Origin: Mycolicibacterium pulveris
GTDB taxonomy: Bacteria; Actinomycetota; Actinomycetes; Mycobacteriales; Mycobacteriaceae
DNA length: 64,000 bases
Assembly: GCF_010725725.1 (NCBI RefSeq)
Contig: NZ_AP022599.1
Location: 992,001-1,056,000, forward strand
Reading direction: 5' to 3'
Shown: positions 48,223 to 53,170 of the stretch, piece by piece
Position numbering within the stretch: the first letter of the stretch is position 1
How the letters are laid out: every line of letters starts with the position of its first letter
The notes under the pieces: generated by a model
Seen by the model: the letters and a program-made list of their open reading frames with translations, nothing else
Told to the model about the DNA's origin: nothing
Databases searched by the model: none
Made by a program: the position numbers and the translations under genes

Positions 48223-48298
48223 AATCGTTGGACGACGATCCCCGCCCGAGAGATTACAACAGGAAAATCGCTGGCTGGGCAGCGCATACTTGACCTCG

Positions 48299-49960
48299 AT
48301 GACAGGCCCCACACCCCGCAAGCCCGTAATCCTCACCGTCGACGACGATCCAGCAGTGTCTCGGGCTGTCGCCCGCGACCTGCGGCGCCACTACGGAGAG
48401 GCCTTCCGCATCGTCCGCGCCGAATCGCCGCACGACGCGCTCGAGACGCTCAACGAGCTCAAATTGCGCGGTGAGACCGTCGCGGTGTTCGTCGCCGACT
48501 ACCGGATGCCGCAGATGAGCGGCATCGAGTTCCTCGAAGAGGCGATGGACATCTTTCCGATGGCGCGCCGGGTGCTGCTGACCGCGTACGCCGACACCAC
48601 CGCCGCGATCGACGCGATCAACGTCGTCGACCTGGACCACTACCTGCTCAAACCGTGGGACCCGCCCGCCGAGAAGCTCTACCCCGTGATCGACGCTCTC
48701 ATCGAGGCCTGGCGCGAAACCGGGGACCGGGCGATCCCCCACACCAAGATCATCGGTCACCCCTACAACGCCCGCTCCTCGGAGGTGCGTGAGTTCCTGG
48801 CCCGCAACCGGATGTACTACACGTGGCTGCGTGCGGACGAGCCCAAGGGCCGTCGACTGCTCGACGCCGCCGGGCTGGACGATCTGACCCTCCCGGTCGT
48901 GATCACCGAACAGGGCCAGACGCTGGTCGCCCCGTCCGACGCCGAGCTCGCCGCCACGCTCGGCCTGTCCACCACCCCGGCCGAGGATTTCTACGATCTC
49001 GTCGTCATCGGCGGCGGCCCCGCCGGGCTGGCCGCGGCGGTGTACGGCGCGTCCGAGGGGCTCAAGACGGTGCTGATCGAACGCACCGCCACCGGCGGCC
49101 AGGCCGGGCAAAGCTCACGCATCGAGAACTACCTGGGCTTCCCGGACGGGTTGTCGGGCGCTCAGCTCGCCGAACGGGCGCGCAGGCAGGCCGAGAAGTT
49201 CGAAGCCGAGTTGATCACCGCCGCCGAGGTCCTCCGCCTCGAGGTCGACGGGTCCGCCCGCACGATTCACCTCTCCGACGGACGGGCGATCGGCACGCGG
49301 GCGGTGATCCTGGCCATGGGCGTCGAGTACCGCCAGCTCGACGCCGACGGCTGCGCCGGGTTGACCGGCGCGGGCGTCTATTACGGGGCGGCCACCTCCG
49401 TCGCCACCGACTGCGGCGGCGAGGAGATCTTCGTCGTCGGCGGGGCGAACTCCGCCGGGCAGGCCGCAATGTATCTGTCGCGCAGCGCGAAACGGGTGAC
49501 CATCGTGTGCCGTCGCACGCTCGAGGATTCGATGTCCTACTACCTGATCCAGCAGATCCGCGCGCAGAACAACATCAGGGAACTGCCCTACACCAGGGTG
49601 CACGCCGTCAAAGGCGGCGACCATCTGGAACGCATCTGCCTGGAGAACCTCCGCACCGGTGAACAAGAGGAACACAGCTGCGAGCGGATGTTCGTCCTGA
49701 TCGGCGCCGAACCGCGCACCGACTGGGTCGAACAGGCAGGCATCGCCCGCGACGACCACGGGTTCATCCTGGCCGGACCCGATCTGCGTGACGTCGCCGG
49801 TTGGACGCTCGACCGGCCGCCGCACCAGCTGGAAACAAGCGTGCCGGGGGTATTTGTTGCAGGGGACGTGCGCTCTCAGTCCGCCAAACGGGTGGCCGCC
49901 GCCGTCGGCGAAGGATCGATGGCCGTGATGTTGGTGCACCGCTACCTCGCGGAAGCGTAG
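48299..49960 (+). CDS. fused response regulator / glutaredoxin-like / thioredoxin-reductase-like flavoprotein
   Basis: 553 residues in three parts. (1) A receiver domain, about 8-125, with acidic Asp15-17, phosphoacceptor Asp67 (VFVADYRMPQMSG), Thr95 and Lys118. (2) A thioredoxin/glutaredoxin-like segment, about 148-220 (KIIGHPYNARSSEVREFLAR ... LPVVITEQGQTL), with no CxxC. (3) A thioredoxin-reductase-like FAD/NAD(P)H module, about 227-553, with LVVIGGGPAGLAAAVYGASE, GGQAGQSSRIENYLGFP, FVVGGANSAGQAAMYLSR and the C-terminal FVAGDVRSQSAKRVAAAVGE. The position of the TrxR CxxC reads GVYYGAATSVATDCGG, so the dithiol is lost. There is no DNA-binding domain: output would be enzymatic or redox. ATG 48299 follows CATACT by 8 nt (leaderless candidate). 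The kinase gene follows after 16 bp. Confidence 0.9.
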   Translation: MTGPTPRKPVILTVDDDPAVSRAVARDLRRHYGEAFRIVRAESPHDALETLNELKLRGETVAVFVADYRMPQMSGIEFLEEAMDIFPMARRVLLTAYADTTAAIDAINVVDLDHYLLKPWDPPAEKLYPVIDALIEAWRETGDRAIPHTKIIGHPYNARSSEVREFLARNRMYYTWLRADEPKGRRLLDAAGLDDLTLPVVITEQGQTLVAPSDAELAATLGLSTTPAEDFYDLVVIGGGPAGLAAAVYGASEGLKTVLIERTATGGQAGQSSRIENYLGFPDGLSGAQLAERARRQAEKFEAELITAAEVLRLEVDGSARTIHLSDGRAIGTRAVILAMGVEYRQLDADGCAGLTGAGVYYGAATSVATDCGGEEIFVVGGANSAGQAAMYLSRSAKRVTIVCRRTLEDSMSYYLIQQIRAQNNIRELPYTRVHAVKGGDHLERICLENLRTGEQEEHSCERMFVLIGAEPRTDWVEQAGIARDDHGFILAGPDLRDVAGWTLDRPPHQLETSVPGVFVAGDVRSQSAKRVAAAVGEGSMAVMLVHRYLAEA

Positions 49961-49976
49961 GAGTAGGAGGCAGGCC

Positions 49977-51437
49977 ATGGGCGACGCGGAAATCAGATGC
50001 ATGCCCGACGAACTGAGGACGTTGTTCCTGTTCGAGGCCCTCGACGACCGGCAGCTGCAGGTGCTGTGCGACAACGGTCACATCGCCGTGTTCGAACCGG
50101 GTCCGATCTGCACCGAGGGCGACCCGGCCACCTGTTTCTACGTCCTGCTCGACGGCGAGTTGGTGATGTCGAAGCGGTCCGGGGGCGTCGACATCGAAAC
50201 CAACCGCACCTCCCAGCGCGGCGTCTACTGCGGCGCCTGGTCGGCATACGTGCCCGGCGAGGAGCACGTCTATGAGGCATCGGTGCGGGTCACCAAACCG
50301 TCCCGGTTTTTCGTGCTCGACGCCGACGCGTTCGCCGCGTTCATGCAGAGCGAGTTCCCGATGGCGGTGCATCTGCTCGAAGGCCACCGGGTGGGCGGGC
50401 GGCGGCAGCGCGAGATCGTCGGGCAGCGCGAGAAGCTGTTGGCGCTGGGCACCATCACCGCCGGGCTGACCCACCAGCTCAACAACCCGGCCGCGGCCGC
50501 CGCACGCGCGGTTGCCGATCTGCGTGAAGGCGTCGGAAAGATGCGCCACAAGTTGGCGATGCTGGCCGACGGCAAGTTCACCCCCGAGGCGCTGCGGGTG
50601 CTGGTGAGCATTCAGGAGGAGGTGGCCGAGCAGGTCGCCAAGTCCAAGGCCCAGGAGCTCACCGCGCTGGAGCTTTCCGACCGCGAGGAGCAGGTCGGTG
50701 ACTGGCTGGAGTCCCGCGGCATCGTCTCGGCCTGGGATTACGCGCCGACGTTCGTCGAGGCCGGGCTCGACATCGACTGGCTGGGCCGGGTCGAGGCCTC
50801 GATCGACGACGTGGACTGTTCGGCGACGTTGCAAGGCGCGTTCGGCTGGCTGAAGTACACGATCGACGCCGAGCTGCGGATGAACGAGATCGCCGACGCC
50901 AGCAAGCGGATCTCGGCGCTGCTGGCCGGCGCCAAGCAGTACTCGCAGATGGACCGCAGCGAGTACCAGACCGCCAACGTCCACGAGCTGATCCACAGCA
51001 CGATCAAGACGATCTTCGGCGACAGGATCGGTAAGGACAAACCGGTCAATCTGGTGTGGGAGAAGGACACCGCTCTCCCCGAATTACATTGTTATCCAGG
51101 CGATCTGAACGAGATGTGGACCAACCTCATCGACAACGCCATCCAGGCGATGGGCGGGGAGGGCACCCTGACGATCCGCACCGCGCGGCACAACGACGAC
51201 ATGGTGCGCGTCGAGGTCTGCGACGACGGTCCGGGCATCCCCGAAGAACACATCGACAGGATCTTCACCCCGTTCTTCACCACCAAGGCCTTCGGTGAAG
51301 GCACCGGGCTGGGCCTGGACCTGGCGCGCCGCGTCGTCGTCGAAAAACACCACGGCGACATCCGGGTGGAGTCCGCGCCCGGCGACATGCGGTTCATCGT
51401 CCTGCTTCCGCTGGTGGCGCCCGCACCGCGGGAATAG
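49977..51437 (+). CDS. soluble histidine kinase with N-terminal cyclic-nucleotide-binding-like domain
   Basis: A 486-residue cytosolic sensor kinase without transmembrane helices. The N-terminal cNMP-binding/Crp-like beta roll (about 12-130: LFLFEALDDRQLQVLCDNG, ICTEGDPATCFYVLLDGELV) lacks the usual FGExAL...R ligand signature (here CGAWSAYVPGEEHVYEAS). It may therefore sense something else, possibly through Cys residues. A helical region follows with the phospho-His166 in GTITAGLTHQLNNPAAAAA and a long dimer segment. The HATPase domain has the N box NEMWTNLIDNAIQAM (near 377), CDDGPGIP (near 414) and GEGTGLGLDLARR (near 439). Cognate partner: the fusion protein 16 bp upstream. Confidence 0.92.
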   Translation: MGDAEIRCMPDELRTLFLFEALDDRQLQVLCDNGHIAVFEPGPICTEGDPATCFYVLLDGELVMSKRSGGVDIETNRTSQRGVYCGAWSAYVPGEEHVYEASVRVTKPSRFFVLDADAFAAFMQSEFPMAVHLLEGHRVGGRRQREIVGQREKLLALGTITAGLTHQLNNPAAAAARAVADLREGVGKMRHKLAMLADGKFTPEALRVLVSIQEEVAEQVAKSKAQELTALELSDREEQVGDWLESRGIVSAWDYAPTFVEAGLDIDWLGRVEASIDDVDCSATLQGAFGWLKYTIDAELRMNEIADASKRISALLAGAKQYSQMDRSEYQTANVHELIHSTIKTIFGDRIGKDKPVNLVWEKDTALPELHCYPGDLNEMWTNLIDNAIQAMGGEGTLTIRTARHNDDMVRVEVCDDGPGIPEEHIDRIFTPFFTTKAFGEGTGLGLDLARRVVVEKHHGDIRVESAPGDMRFIVLLPLVAPAPRE

Positions 51438-51466: not shown

Positions 51467-52312
51467 ATGACGAAACCGGAGCTCGGCCGCTACGGGGTAT
51501 TCGGTCTGTACTGGACGTGGCAGAAGCTCAGCCCGGATCAGCTGCGGGCGATCGAGGACCTCGGCTACGGCGCGATCTGGGCCGGCGGCTCCCCACCGGC
51601 GGACCTGTCGTGGGTCGAGCCGCTACTCGAGCCCACCACCAACCTCAAGGTGGCCACCGGCATCGTCAACATCTGGACCGCCGAGGCCGGCCCGGTCAGC
51701 GAGTCGTTCCACCGCATCGAGCGGGCCTATCCCGGTCGTTTCCTGCTGGGCATCGGTGTCGGCCATCCCGAGGCGCACGCCGAATACCAGAAGCCGTACG
51801 ACGCGCTGAACGACTACCTCGACAAGCTCGACGAGCACGGCGTCCCCGAGGATCGCCGGGTCGTCGCCGCGCTGGGTCCGCGGGTACTGAAGCTGTCGGC
51901 GCGGCGCGCCGCGGGCCCGCATCCGTATCTGACGACGCCGGAACACACCGCGCGGGCGCGTGCGCTGCTCGGGCCCGACGCGTTCATCGCGCCCGAGCAC
52001 AAGGCCGTGTTGACCACCGATGCCCACGAGGCACGGGCGACCGGCCGCAAGGCGCTGGACATCTACCTGAACCTGACGAACTACCGCAACAACTGGAAGC
52101 GCCTCGGGTTCACCGACGAAGACATCGCCAAGCCGGGCAGCGACCGCCTTGTCGACGCGATGGTGGCGTATGGCACCGTCGATGCCATCGCCAACCGGCT
52201 CAAAGAGCACCGCGACGCGGGCGCCGACCACGTGCCCGTGCAGGTACTCACCGGACCGGACAAGCTGGTGGACGCGCTCACCGAACTCGCAGGCCCGCTG
52301 GGCCTGCGGTGA
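51467..52312 (+). CDS. LLM-class F420-dependent oxidoreductase (Rv3463-type), copy 1
   Basis: A 281-residue luciferase-like monooxygenase-fold protein: MTKPELGRYGVFGLYWTWQK, GYGAIWAGGSPPADLSWVEP, NLKVATGIVNIWTAEAGPVS, ERAYPGRFLLGIGVGHPE and ALGPRVLKLSARRAAGPHPY. Mycobacterial members of this subgroup (Rv3463 is the positional equivalent) use F420. It starts 29 bp after the kinase gene and may be co-transcribed with it. About half the residues match the next gene, so the pair arose by tandem duplication. Substrate unknown. Confidence 0.9.
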   Translation: MTKPELGRYGVFGLYWTWQKLSPDQLRAIEDLGYGAIWAGGSPPADLSWVEPLLEPTTNLKVATGIVNIWTAEAGPVSESFHRIERAYPGRFLLGIGVGHPEAHAEYQKPYDALNDYLDKLDEHGVPEDRRVVAALGPRVLKLSARRAAGPHPYLTTPEHTARARALLGPDAFIAPEHKAVLTTDAHEARATGRKALDIYLNLTNYRNNWKRLGFTDEDIAKPGSDRLVDAMVAYGTVDAIANRLKEHRDAGADHVPVQVLTGPDKLVDALTELAGPLGLR

Positions 52313-52327
52313 CCCGAAGGGATCCAC

Positions 52328-53170
52328 ATGACTGAGCTCAAGCCCGAACTCGGCCGCTTCGGAGTCTGGACGTTCGGGGTGGTCAAACCCGAACAGGCCG
52401 TCGAAATCGAGAAGCTCGGGTACGGCGCCGTGTGGATCGGCGGGTCCCCGGCCGGTGACCTCAACTACGTCGAGCCCATCCTCGAACGCACCGAGAACCT
52501 TCAGGTCGCCACCGGCGTCATCAACGTCTGGACGGCGCCCGCCGACGAGGTCGCCGAGGCCTACCACCGCGTCGAAGACGCCTACCCGGGTCGGTTCCTG
52601 CTCGGCATCGGCATCGGGCATCCCGAGCACACCGAGGAGTACCGCAAGCCCTACGACGTGATGGTGGAGTACCTCGACCGTCTCGACGCGGCCAAAGTGC
52701 CGACCAGCCGGCGCGTGATCGCCGCGCTGGGCCCGCGGATGCTCAAGCTGGCCGCACAACGCAGTGCAGGCGCTCATCCCTACCTGACGACGCCGCAGCA
52801 CACTGGGGAAGCGCGAAACCTGTTGGGCCCGACGGTGTTCCTGGCCCCCGAACACAAGGTGGTGCTGGCCAGGGACGCTGAGGCGTCGCGCCGGATCGGC
52901 CGCGAGGCCGTCGATTTCTATCTGAACCTGTCCAACTACCGCAACAACTGGAAGCGGCTCGGGTTCACCGACGACGACCTGGCCAAGCCTGGCAGCGAGC
53001 GGTTCATCGACGCGGTGGTCGCCCACGGCACCCCCGAAGACATCGCCGCACGCTTGACCGAGCATCTGGACGCCGGCGCCGACCACGTGACGATCCAGGT
53101 GCTCGGGGGCTGGGACAACCTGCTACCGACGCTTGCCGAACTGGCCGGCCCGCTCGGCCTGAAGGACTGA
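52328..53170 (+). CDS. LLM-class F420-dependent oxidoreductase, copy 2
   Basis: A 280-residue tandem paralogue of the previous gene with the same landmarks: FGVWTFGVVKPEQAVEIEKL, GYGAVWIGGSPAGDLNYVEP, NLQVATGVINVWTAPADEVA, PGRFLLGIGIGHPEHTEEYR and the shared NLSNYRNNWKRLGFTDDDLA. It begins 15 bp after copy 1. The second copy differs most in the N-terminal 40 residues, near the expected cofactor face, and may have a different partner substrate. Confidence 0.9.
   Translation: MTELKPELGRFGVWTFGVVKPEQAVEIEKLGYGAVWIGGSPAGDLNYVEPILERTENLQVATGVINVWTAPADEVAEAYHRVEDAYPGRFLLGIGIGHPEHTEEYRKPYDVMVEYLDRLDAAKVPTSRRVIAALGPRMLKLAAQRSAGAHPYLTTPQHTGEARNLLGPTVFLAPEHKVVLARDAEASRRIGREAVDFYLNLSNYRNNWKRLGFTDDDLAKPGSERFIDAVVAHGTPEDIAARLTEHLDAGADHVTIQVLGGWDNLLPTLAELAGPLGLKD

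Follow-up and report, generated by a model that had tools for sequence, protein, structure and literature searches.

The stretch of DNA analysed here, called the window, comprises 64,000 nucleotides of the Mycolicibacterium pulveris genome (G000:C1:992001-1056000, forward strand of NZ_AP022599.1), a single contig of 5.48 Mb. It contains a gene for a flavoprotein that joins a receiver domain, a glutaredoxin (Grx)-like domain and a thioredoxin reductase (TrxR)-like module, followed after 16 bp by a gene for a soluble histidine kinase, the ATG of which is preceded by AGGAGG (Table 1). The flavoprotein could start at the ATG at 48299 or at a TTG at 48290, three codons further 5′, which gives the 556-aa numbering used for its Pfam matches. 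Open reading frames (ORFs) and Pfam domains agree with the first-pass annotation, a model's reading of the letters alone, on the coordinates, the fusion protein and the kinase adjoining it 16 bp on. In a search of the window's genome, no second full-length copy of either protein was found; the next-best flavoprotein match was the genome's own TrxB (37% over residues 229-555), and the remaining kinase matches cover mainly the ATPase domain. By sequence comparison, the nearest protein relatives are from Mycolicibacterium, and one that bears the name of M. holsaticum matches at 93%. Judged from sequence, the kinase and the flavoprotein very probably form a cognate phosphotransfer pair.

Table 1. 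Features of the flavoprotein and kinase genes in the window, with the evidence for each (A3, kinase alignment of 48 rows including the window).
Feature	Coordinates	Strand	Evidence
Receiver / Grx-like / TrxR-like flavoprotein, 553 aa	48299..49960	+	ORF; Pfam domains
Receiver domain, residues 9-125; acidic pair D15 D16, phospho-acceptor D67, switch T95 + Y115, K118	48323..48673	+	Pfam; alignments
Glutaredoxin-like domain, residues 148-224, NARS replacing CxxC	48740..48970	+	AlphaFold secondary structure; weak profile match to Rv3198.1
TrxR-like FAD/NAD(P)H module, residues 232-553	48992..49957	+	
AATS in place of catalytic CATC of thioredoxin reductase	49388..49399	+	Alignment with own TrxB; codons read
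Cys372, lone cysteine kept in near relatives	49412..49414	+	Alignment; codon read
Soluble histidine kinase, 486 aa	49977..51437	+	ORF; Pfam
Cys8 ahead of Crp-like domain, probable counterpart of oxidised MSMEG_1515 Cys5	49998..50000	+	A3; codon read; cited OxICAT table of PMC5430705
Crp-like (cNMP-binding fold) sensor domain, about residues 13-135	50013..50381	+	Pfam; PDB sequence match to DNR, E 3.6e-4
DHp helix 1, residues 128-197, H166 (codon 50472-50474)	50358..50567	+	Alignment; codon; model
Helical insert between DHp helices, about residues 198-284	50568..50828	+	Model; alignment of 25 kinases
Catalytic ATP-binding domain, about residues 331-479	50967..51413	+	HATPase_c 376-479; model

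The receiver was recognised by Pfam (Response_reg at 14-125, E 9.9e-13), and the D67 codon was read at 48497-48499. In an alignment of near flavoproteins (A2, 48 rows including the window) and a wider one (A1, 21 rows), D15, D16, D67, T95, Y115 and K118 are invariant (48/48 and 21/21). The residue set of a response regulator, i.e. acidic pair, phospho-Asp, Thr/Ser and Lys, is present in 48/48 rows of A2, where D67, T95 and K118, named as phosphorylation residues in the first-pass annotation (553-aa numbering), are identical throughout. The receiver is also the most conserved part of the protein in A2 (0.857, vs 0.771 for the TrxR-like and 0.707 for the Grx-like part), and A1 ranks the parts alike. 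No DNA-binding family was found among the Pfam matches of either protein, as had been claimed for the fusion.

A sample of 296 actinobacterial genomes, drawn evenly from the phylum and including the window's genome, was searched for the flavoprotein (E 1e-55) and, with the window kinase as query, for the kinase (E 1e-30). Flavoprotein matches were assigned to classes A, B and C by score and match start, class A being the strong matches of over 500 bits. Excluding four hand-placed class A fragments (G256:C57 twice, G135 twice), 46 strong matches, window included, were found in 42 of the 296 genomes, and the conserved adjacency of fusion and kinase that was proposed as a check could be seen in 44 of them, with 9-51 bp separating the flavoprotein match from that of the kinase, which is on the same strand, downstream in 42 cases and upstream in two. 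None of the 65 weaker matches (36 + 29) had a kinase match within 6 kb, a count in which the kinase threshold could miss a distant kinase next to a class B or C match. When ten of these 65 class B and C rows were scanned for domains, cNMP_binding was over its cut-off in 5/5 class C rows, while among five class B rows three gave a sub-cut-off receiver match and two gave none. One of the two unlinked strong matches, G173:C121, ends 542 bp short of the contig end. Counted per genome with the four fragment rows included, 43 genomes carried both proteins, one only the flavoprotein (at a contig edge), one only the kinase and 251 neither. Among named loci (the best 80 of at least 591), a kinase was present in the fetched flank of all 80 and within 319 bp in 76; their genera include Mycobacterium, Streptomyces, Nocardia, Rhodococcus, Tsukamurella, Kutzneria, Frankia, Micromonospora, Kribbella, Amycolatopsis and others, and genes farther from the pair vary between lineages.

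A tree of the Grx-like and TrxR-like parts, from which the N-terminal domain was excluded, resolved three N-terminal arrangements among 41 rows (39 loci, the window and its own TrxB; of the 40 loci fetched, L112 had no called flavoprotein and is absent from alignment and tree). Proteins with a degenerate receiver form one clade of 12 rows (support 98/97) with no adjacent kinase, and proteins with a cyclic nucleotide monophosphate (cNMP) domain instead of the receiver form another of six rows (support 96/99) with no kinase match nearby. The near set is the rest of the tree and, given two changes, is not shown to be one clade; a kinase is adjacent in 21 of its 22 rows, the exception being locus L114. 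The full phospho-acceptor set is retained in 22/22 rows of the near set, 0/12 of the degenerate-receiver clade and 0/6 of the cNMP clade, which is the pattern that selection on phosphorylation would be expected to give. The gene linkage, together with receiver residues that are kept in the kinase-linked set and lost in the clade without an adjacent kinase, gives good support to a cognate pair whose output is not DNA binding. The cNMP clade looks as if a signal could be either wired in directly or delivered via a phosphorelay on the same enzyme.

In the redox parts of the flavoprotein, the TrxR fold and the nucleotide-binding motifs are retained but the cysteines are not. Pfam placed Pyr_redox_2 at 235-542 (E 1.1e-35), and the FAD and NAD(P)H dinucleotide-binding motifs are kept within the TrxR fold despite the CxxC loss. 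All 21 of 21 rows have an Arg (R405) where TrxR has the first Arg of its HRR, and together with the kept nucleotide motifs this makes NADPH a likely electron donor. At the CxxC position of the Grx-like part, the window protein has NARS and many relatives SARS or similar, i.e. neither the CxxC nor the CxxS of a glutaredoxin or mycoredoxin active site, and no CxxC occurs anywhere in the 40 aligned family proteins, window included. The first-pass annotation was right about a TrxR-like FAD/NAD(P)H module as to fold and nucleotide motifs, whereas the dithiol chemistry that goes with the name is not supported in proteins with no CxxC in either redox domain. The glutaredoxin-like segment that it described may be of the thioredoxin type: residues 148-224 have the strand/helix order of a thioredoxin-type domain in the whole-protein AlphaFold model (mean predicted local distance difference test, pLDDT, 77.6; predicted template modelling score, pTM, 0.55) and match the glutaredoxin-like Rv3198.1 weakly by profile (E 0.23, WCGYC opposite WSARS), but they lack CxxC and a significant Pfam match (Pfam Glutaredoxin at E 0.063 in 1/12). 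Structure comparison gave little information on the N-terminal half of the flavoprotein because TrxR chains took up the lists of both Foldseek and VIA. Among sequences of solved structures, 243 matched, and none of the best 60 spans receiver and flavin module.

The candidate function of thioredoxin reductase was rejected on the grounds of the absent CxxC and the low family score (216.1 bits for NCBIfam TIGR01292, below the curated cut-off of 343.45). The flavoprotein is very probably not a dithiol reductase, and the chemistry implied by the name 'thioredoxin reductase', which some databases give to such proteins in the form thioredoxin reductase (NADPH) where others give FAD-dependent oxidoreductase, is probably wrong. 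The at least 8000 scored candidates for protein relatives may include ordinary TrxR. It seems highly improbable that the protein is a working disulfide reductase using another cysteine, e.g. Cys372, or an ordinary thioredoxin reductase with added regulation. The TrxR fold, some of the database names and the presence of Cys372 in 48/48 rows of A2 would fit such an enzyme, but Cys372 is present in only 15 of the 21 wider members and missing in six, a lack of conservation that makes a disulfide through this residue unlikely; both CxxC are absent, the score of 216 bits stands against a TrxR cut-off of 343, and the window's genome has a separate TrxB with CATC intact beside a thioredoxin gene.

The loss of all redox cysteines with retention of the FAD and NAD(P)H motifs would also be compatible with a reversed direction of signalling, in which the flavin module senses NAD(P)H or oxygen, sets the phosphorylation or dephosphorylation of the receiver and reports the redox state to the kinase, with no turnover. 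The neighbourhoods bear on this as well. No fixed metabolic neighbour stands out as a source of the substrate, and outside Mycobacteriaceae the outer genes vary and no metabolic neighbour recurs strongly; besides the kinase and a zinc finger, the widest neighbour clusters are SDR-like (7/40 loci), UspA-like (5) and MFS-like (5), which are common types with labels read from sequence. Nevertheless, no separate response-regulator family recurs by the pair among the clustered neighbours, which were the only ones annotated (one receiver-like family occurs near four loci, one of them kinase-linked), and the flavin module is the same in the cNMP-fused clade, near which no kinase match lies. On balance we consider signalling from the flavoprotein to the kinase improbable.

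In the kinase, Pfam recognised cNMP_binding at 44-125 (E 1.7e-8; PF00027 34.7 bits, above the cut-off of 27.5) and HATPase_c at 376-479 (E 2.5e-26), and H166 is invariant in 48/48 rows of A3, all of which bears out the earlier description of a soluble histidine kinase with a Crp-like sensor and H166 as the predicted phosphorylation site. The N box and G boxes are represented by N383, N387, D416, G418, G442, G444 and G446, each kept by 90% or more of 25 kinases. Pfam HisKA gave no match; the kinase model (mean pLDDT 81.1) has long helices at 128-197 and 285-327 with a helical insert between them, and HisKA may go unrecognised because the insert splits the DHp helices. The insert spans about 87 residues in the model, and 25/25 aligned kinases have sequence there; a helical insert between the DHp helices is unusual for a histidine kinase.

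The phosphate-binding cassette motif of cNMP receptors served as the reference for the sensor domain. The corresponding segment of the window kinase, GVYCGAWSAYVPGEEHVYEAS, does not follow it, and GE-ALL-R-like cassette motifs are kept in the kinases of L090-L093; cAMP might still serve as the signal of the window kinase, with a cassette that appears degenerate. Ahead of the Crp-like domain, Cys8 is found in 34 of the 48 kinases of A3 and replaced by leucine in 12. At one locus (L094:9786-11195), the upstream kinase seems to have a receiver-like N-terminus instead of a Crp-like one. At several others (L084, L086 (G200, G125), G174, G216, G208, G232), two to three related kinases stand in tandem after one flavoprotein, as if several signals could feed one output.

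Published data exist for probable counterparts in M. smegmatis, where infA is MSMEG_1519 (PMC11129820), MSMEG_1516 is named 'thioredoxin reductase' (PMC7474061, PMC10433963) and MSMEG_1515 'two-component sensor histidine kinase' in the cited passages. MSMEG_1516 and MSMEG_1515 are very likely orthologues of the pair, and since five kinase relatives in A3 begin MGEKC or MGETC, Cys5 of MSMEG_1515 fits Cys8 of the window kinase. According to the cited OxICAT data, hypochlorite raised the oxidation of MSMEG_1515 Cys5 from 13.1 to 48.5% in the wild type; where mycothiol was lacking, the rise was from 39.2 to 58.3% (PMC5430705). For MSMEG_1516, the cited passages report that it co-precipitates with the phage protein Wildcat gp145, which is toxic and leads to branched filaments when expressed, and that it led the co-precipitated band in number of spectra by a wide margin (PMC7474061), that it is among ClpC1 interactors with low scores (PMC10433963), and that it is under-represented upon VapC overexpression (PMC10745673). 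None of these cited passages connects the kinase with the flavoprotein, and among the matches listed in the open literature, a coverage mostly outside subscription journals, no title deals with the pair.

UBP-type zinc-finger (PF02148) genes recur near the module. Of 107 matches in 76 of the 296 genomes, two of which are one split gene in the window's genome, 29 are no farther than 10 kb from a match to the flavoprotein or the kinase, compared with about 0.8 expected from a simple window-size estimate based on genome sizes, and 78 lie elsewhere. Per flavoprotein row, a UBP match is nearby for 18/50 in the near set and for 3/36 and 7/29 in the other classes. A UBP gene stands downstream of the kinase in 40 of the best 80 named loci, all 40 in the range L133-L191, and also close to the pair at L078, L093, L113 and L114; in Streptomyces, flavoprotein, kinase and UBP genes are often consecutive. 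In the window's genome, UBP matches occur only at C1:3123479-3123677 (L195:3479-3677), 2 Mb off and across two reading frames, so that the gene is decayed or the assembly is wrong at this site. Among the open-literature matches listed, no title concerns bacterial UBP fingers with this module, and the cited passages of PMC2602986 treat zf-UBP mini-proteins without mention of thioredoxin.

These genes, together with the presence of MSMEG_1516 in the gp145 co-precipitate (PMC7474061) and, with low scores, among ClpC1 interactors (PMC10433963), as given in the cited passages, raise the idea of a phospho-regulated docking or scaffold factor, in which the receiver and Grx-like domain control the binding of a partner, e.g. 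a UBP protein, and flavin chemistry is secondary. Such a role would fit the 29/107 UBP matches near the module and the UBP gene in 40 of the best 80 named loci, but 78/107 matches lie away from it, the window pair has no adjoining zinc-finger gene and its genome's own matches are the distant ones in two frames, and the kept FAD and NAD(P)H motifs argue for chemistry. We regard the scaffold as even less probable than the reversed direction of signalling.

The reading that we prefer, at about even confidence, is a cognate two-component pair with an enzyme output, which is redox-responsive and gates a non-disulfide flavoenzyme. The soluble kinase would read an intracellular signal, in mycobacteria perhaps the thiol-oxidation state, sensed via the N-terminal cysteine beside the Crp-like domain; it would autophosphorylate on H166 and pass the phosphate to D67 of the flavoprotein. 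The receiver would then alter the arrangement of the Grx-like and FAD/NAD(P)H domains, and the altered arrangement could gate electrons from NAD(P)H via FAD to an acceptor outside the usual dithiol relay. The sequences show the domains, the intact catalytic residues, the deep linkage, the fate of the receiver residues with and without the kinase and the missing cysteines; the transfer of phosphate, a redox-sensing role for this kinase, the gating, the use of NADPH and the acceptor are inferred from them. Since the genes are kept together in relatives, the kinase probably controls a redox reaction directly rather than transcription. That phosphorylation gates the flavin chemistry appears slightly more probable than not, while a response of the kinase to thiol oxidation falls somewhat short of even confidence. 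The kinase-to-enzyme idea of the first-pass annotation thus survives in the pairing (44/46) and the kept receiver (22/22 vs 0/12), and not in its thioredoxin reductase chemistry.

Several points weigh against this reading. The flavoprotein model is only fair, with the mean pLDDT and pTM given above, and offers a weak basis for domain packing. L114 (G285:C6) is a real exception, having the full phospho-acceptor set yet no kinase within 6 kb, and the next kinase match on that contig is about 22 kb from the flavoprotein. Conversely, 8/64 kinase matches have no flavoprotein match within 6 kb, so that this type of kinase may serve other partners. Receiver decay without a kinase is confined to one clade and may therefore be a single event rather than a statistical sample. 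The orthology of the MSMEG proteins rests on locus numbers, names, size and the position of Cys5, not on sequences; the residue at Cys8, being leucine in 12/48 kinases, cannot be a general sensor, and the oxidised cysteine of MSMEG_1515 may be a bystander. A wider scenario is accordingly tentative and in our view rather doubtful, namely a redox-stress phosphorelay onto a flavoenzyme that evolved from a Grx plus TrxR dithiol relay, in which all four redox cysteines were lost and receiver control replaced cysteine exchange, with a sister lineage wired through a Crp-like domain and the UBP protein as a frequent partner.

Around the pair, the window has infA upstream of the flavoprotein, divergently oriented, and 3′ of the kinase two genes of the luciferase-like F420 type, followed by one similar to rmlB and one similar to rmlC, all named from their sequences. 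The two luciferase-like F420-type oxidoreductase genes are similar to each other and lie in tandem after the kinase (window 51467-53170), and three other mycobacterial loci carry one to three genes related to them. In M. tuberculosis, we take one luciferase-like F420-type gene to lie directly between infA and rmlB, and the kinase/flavoprotein pair therefore seems lost there.

As to known systems, fusions of response regulator and TrxR are a counted response-regulator class with a 'Mycobacterium-like' REC-TrxR combination (PMC5847659), and a TrxB output is a table entry among response regulators (PMC9953108), so that the earlier statement of a named family agrees with the cited passages. The window protein has the same domain order and belongs to this class by architecture; the class name implies disulfide reduction, whereas the cysteines are absent in the window protein and the other 39 family proteins, and the cited passages of PMC5847659 and PMC9953108 on the class do not mention the kinase and UBP partners. 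The architecture is already in print; the missing cysteines and the partners set the present proteins apart as a variant. Compared with TrxB (M. smegmatis 5uth, M. tuberculosis 2a87), the protein differs by AATS for CATC and by its extra receiver and Grx-like domains. AhpF also has a thioredoxin-fold domain ahead of a TrxR-like module but no receiver, and it relays electrons via CxxC pairs, of which the window flavoprotein has none; its chain 4xvg aligns to residues 145-553 with a root-mean-square deviation of 21.7, indicating a different packing. The Gloeobacter oxidoreductase 5n0j, which is TrxR-like without the usual relay and presumably of the DDOR type, shares 18% identity over a matched chain of 300 residues without a receiver.

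A laboratory species already offers data on the probable pair, in the oxidation of the kinase cysteine and the binding of the flavoprotein by a phage protein, and the three N-terminal arrangements on one enzyme form a natural comparison of one-component and two-component control. If our reading is true, some proteins named thioredoxin reductase in databases are not disulfide reductases, and a bacterial kinase would switch redox metabolism without transcription.

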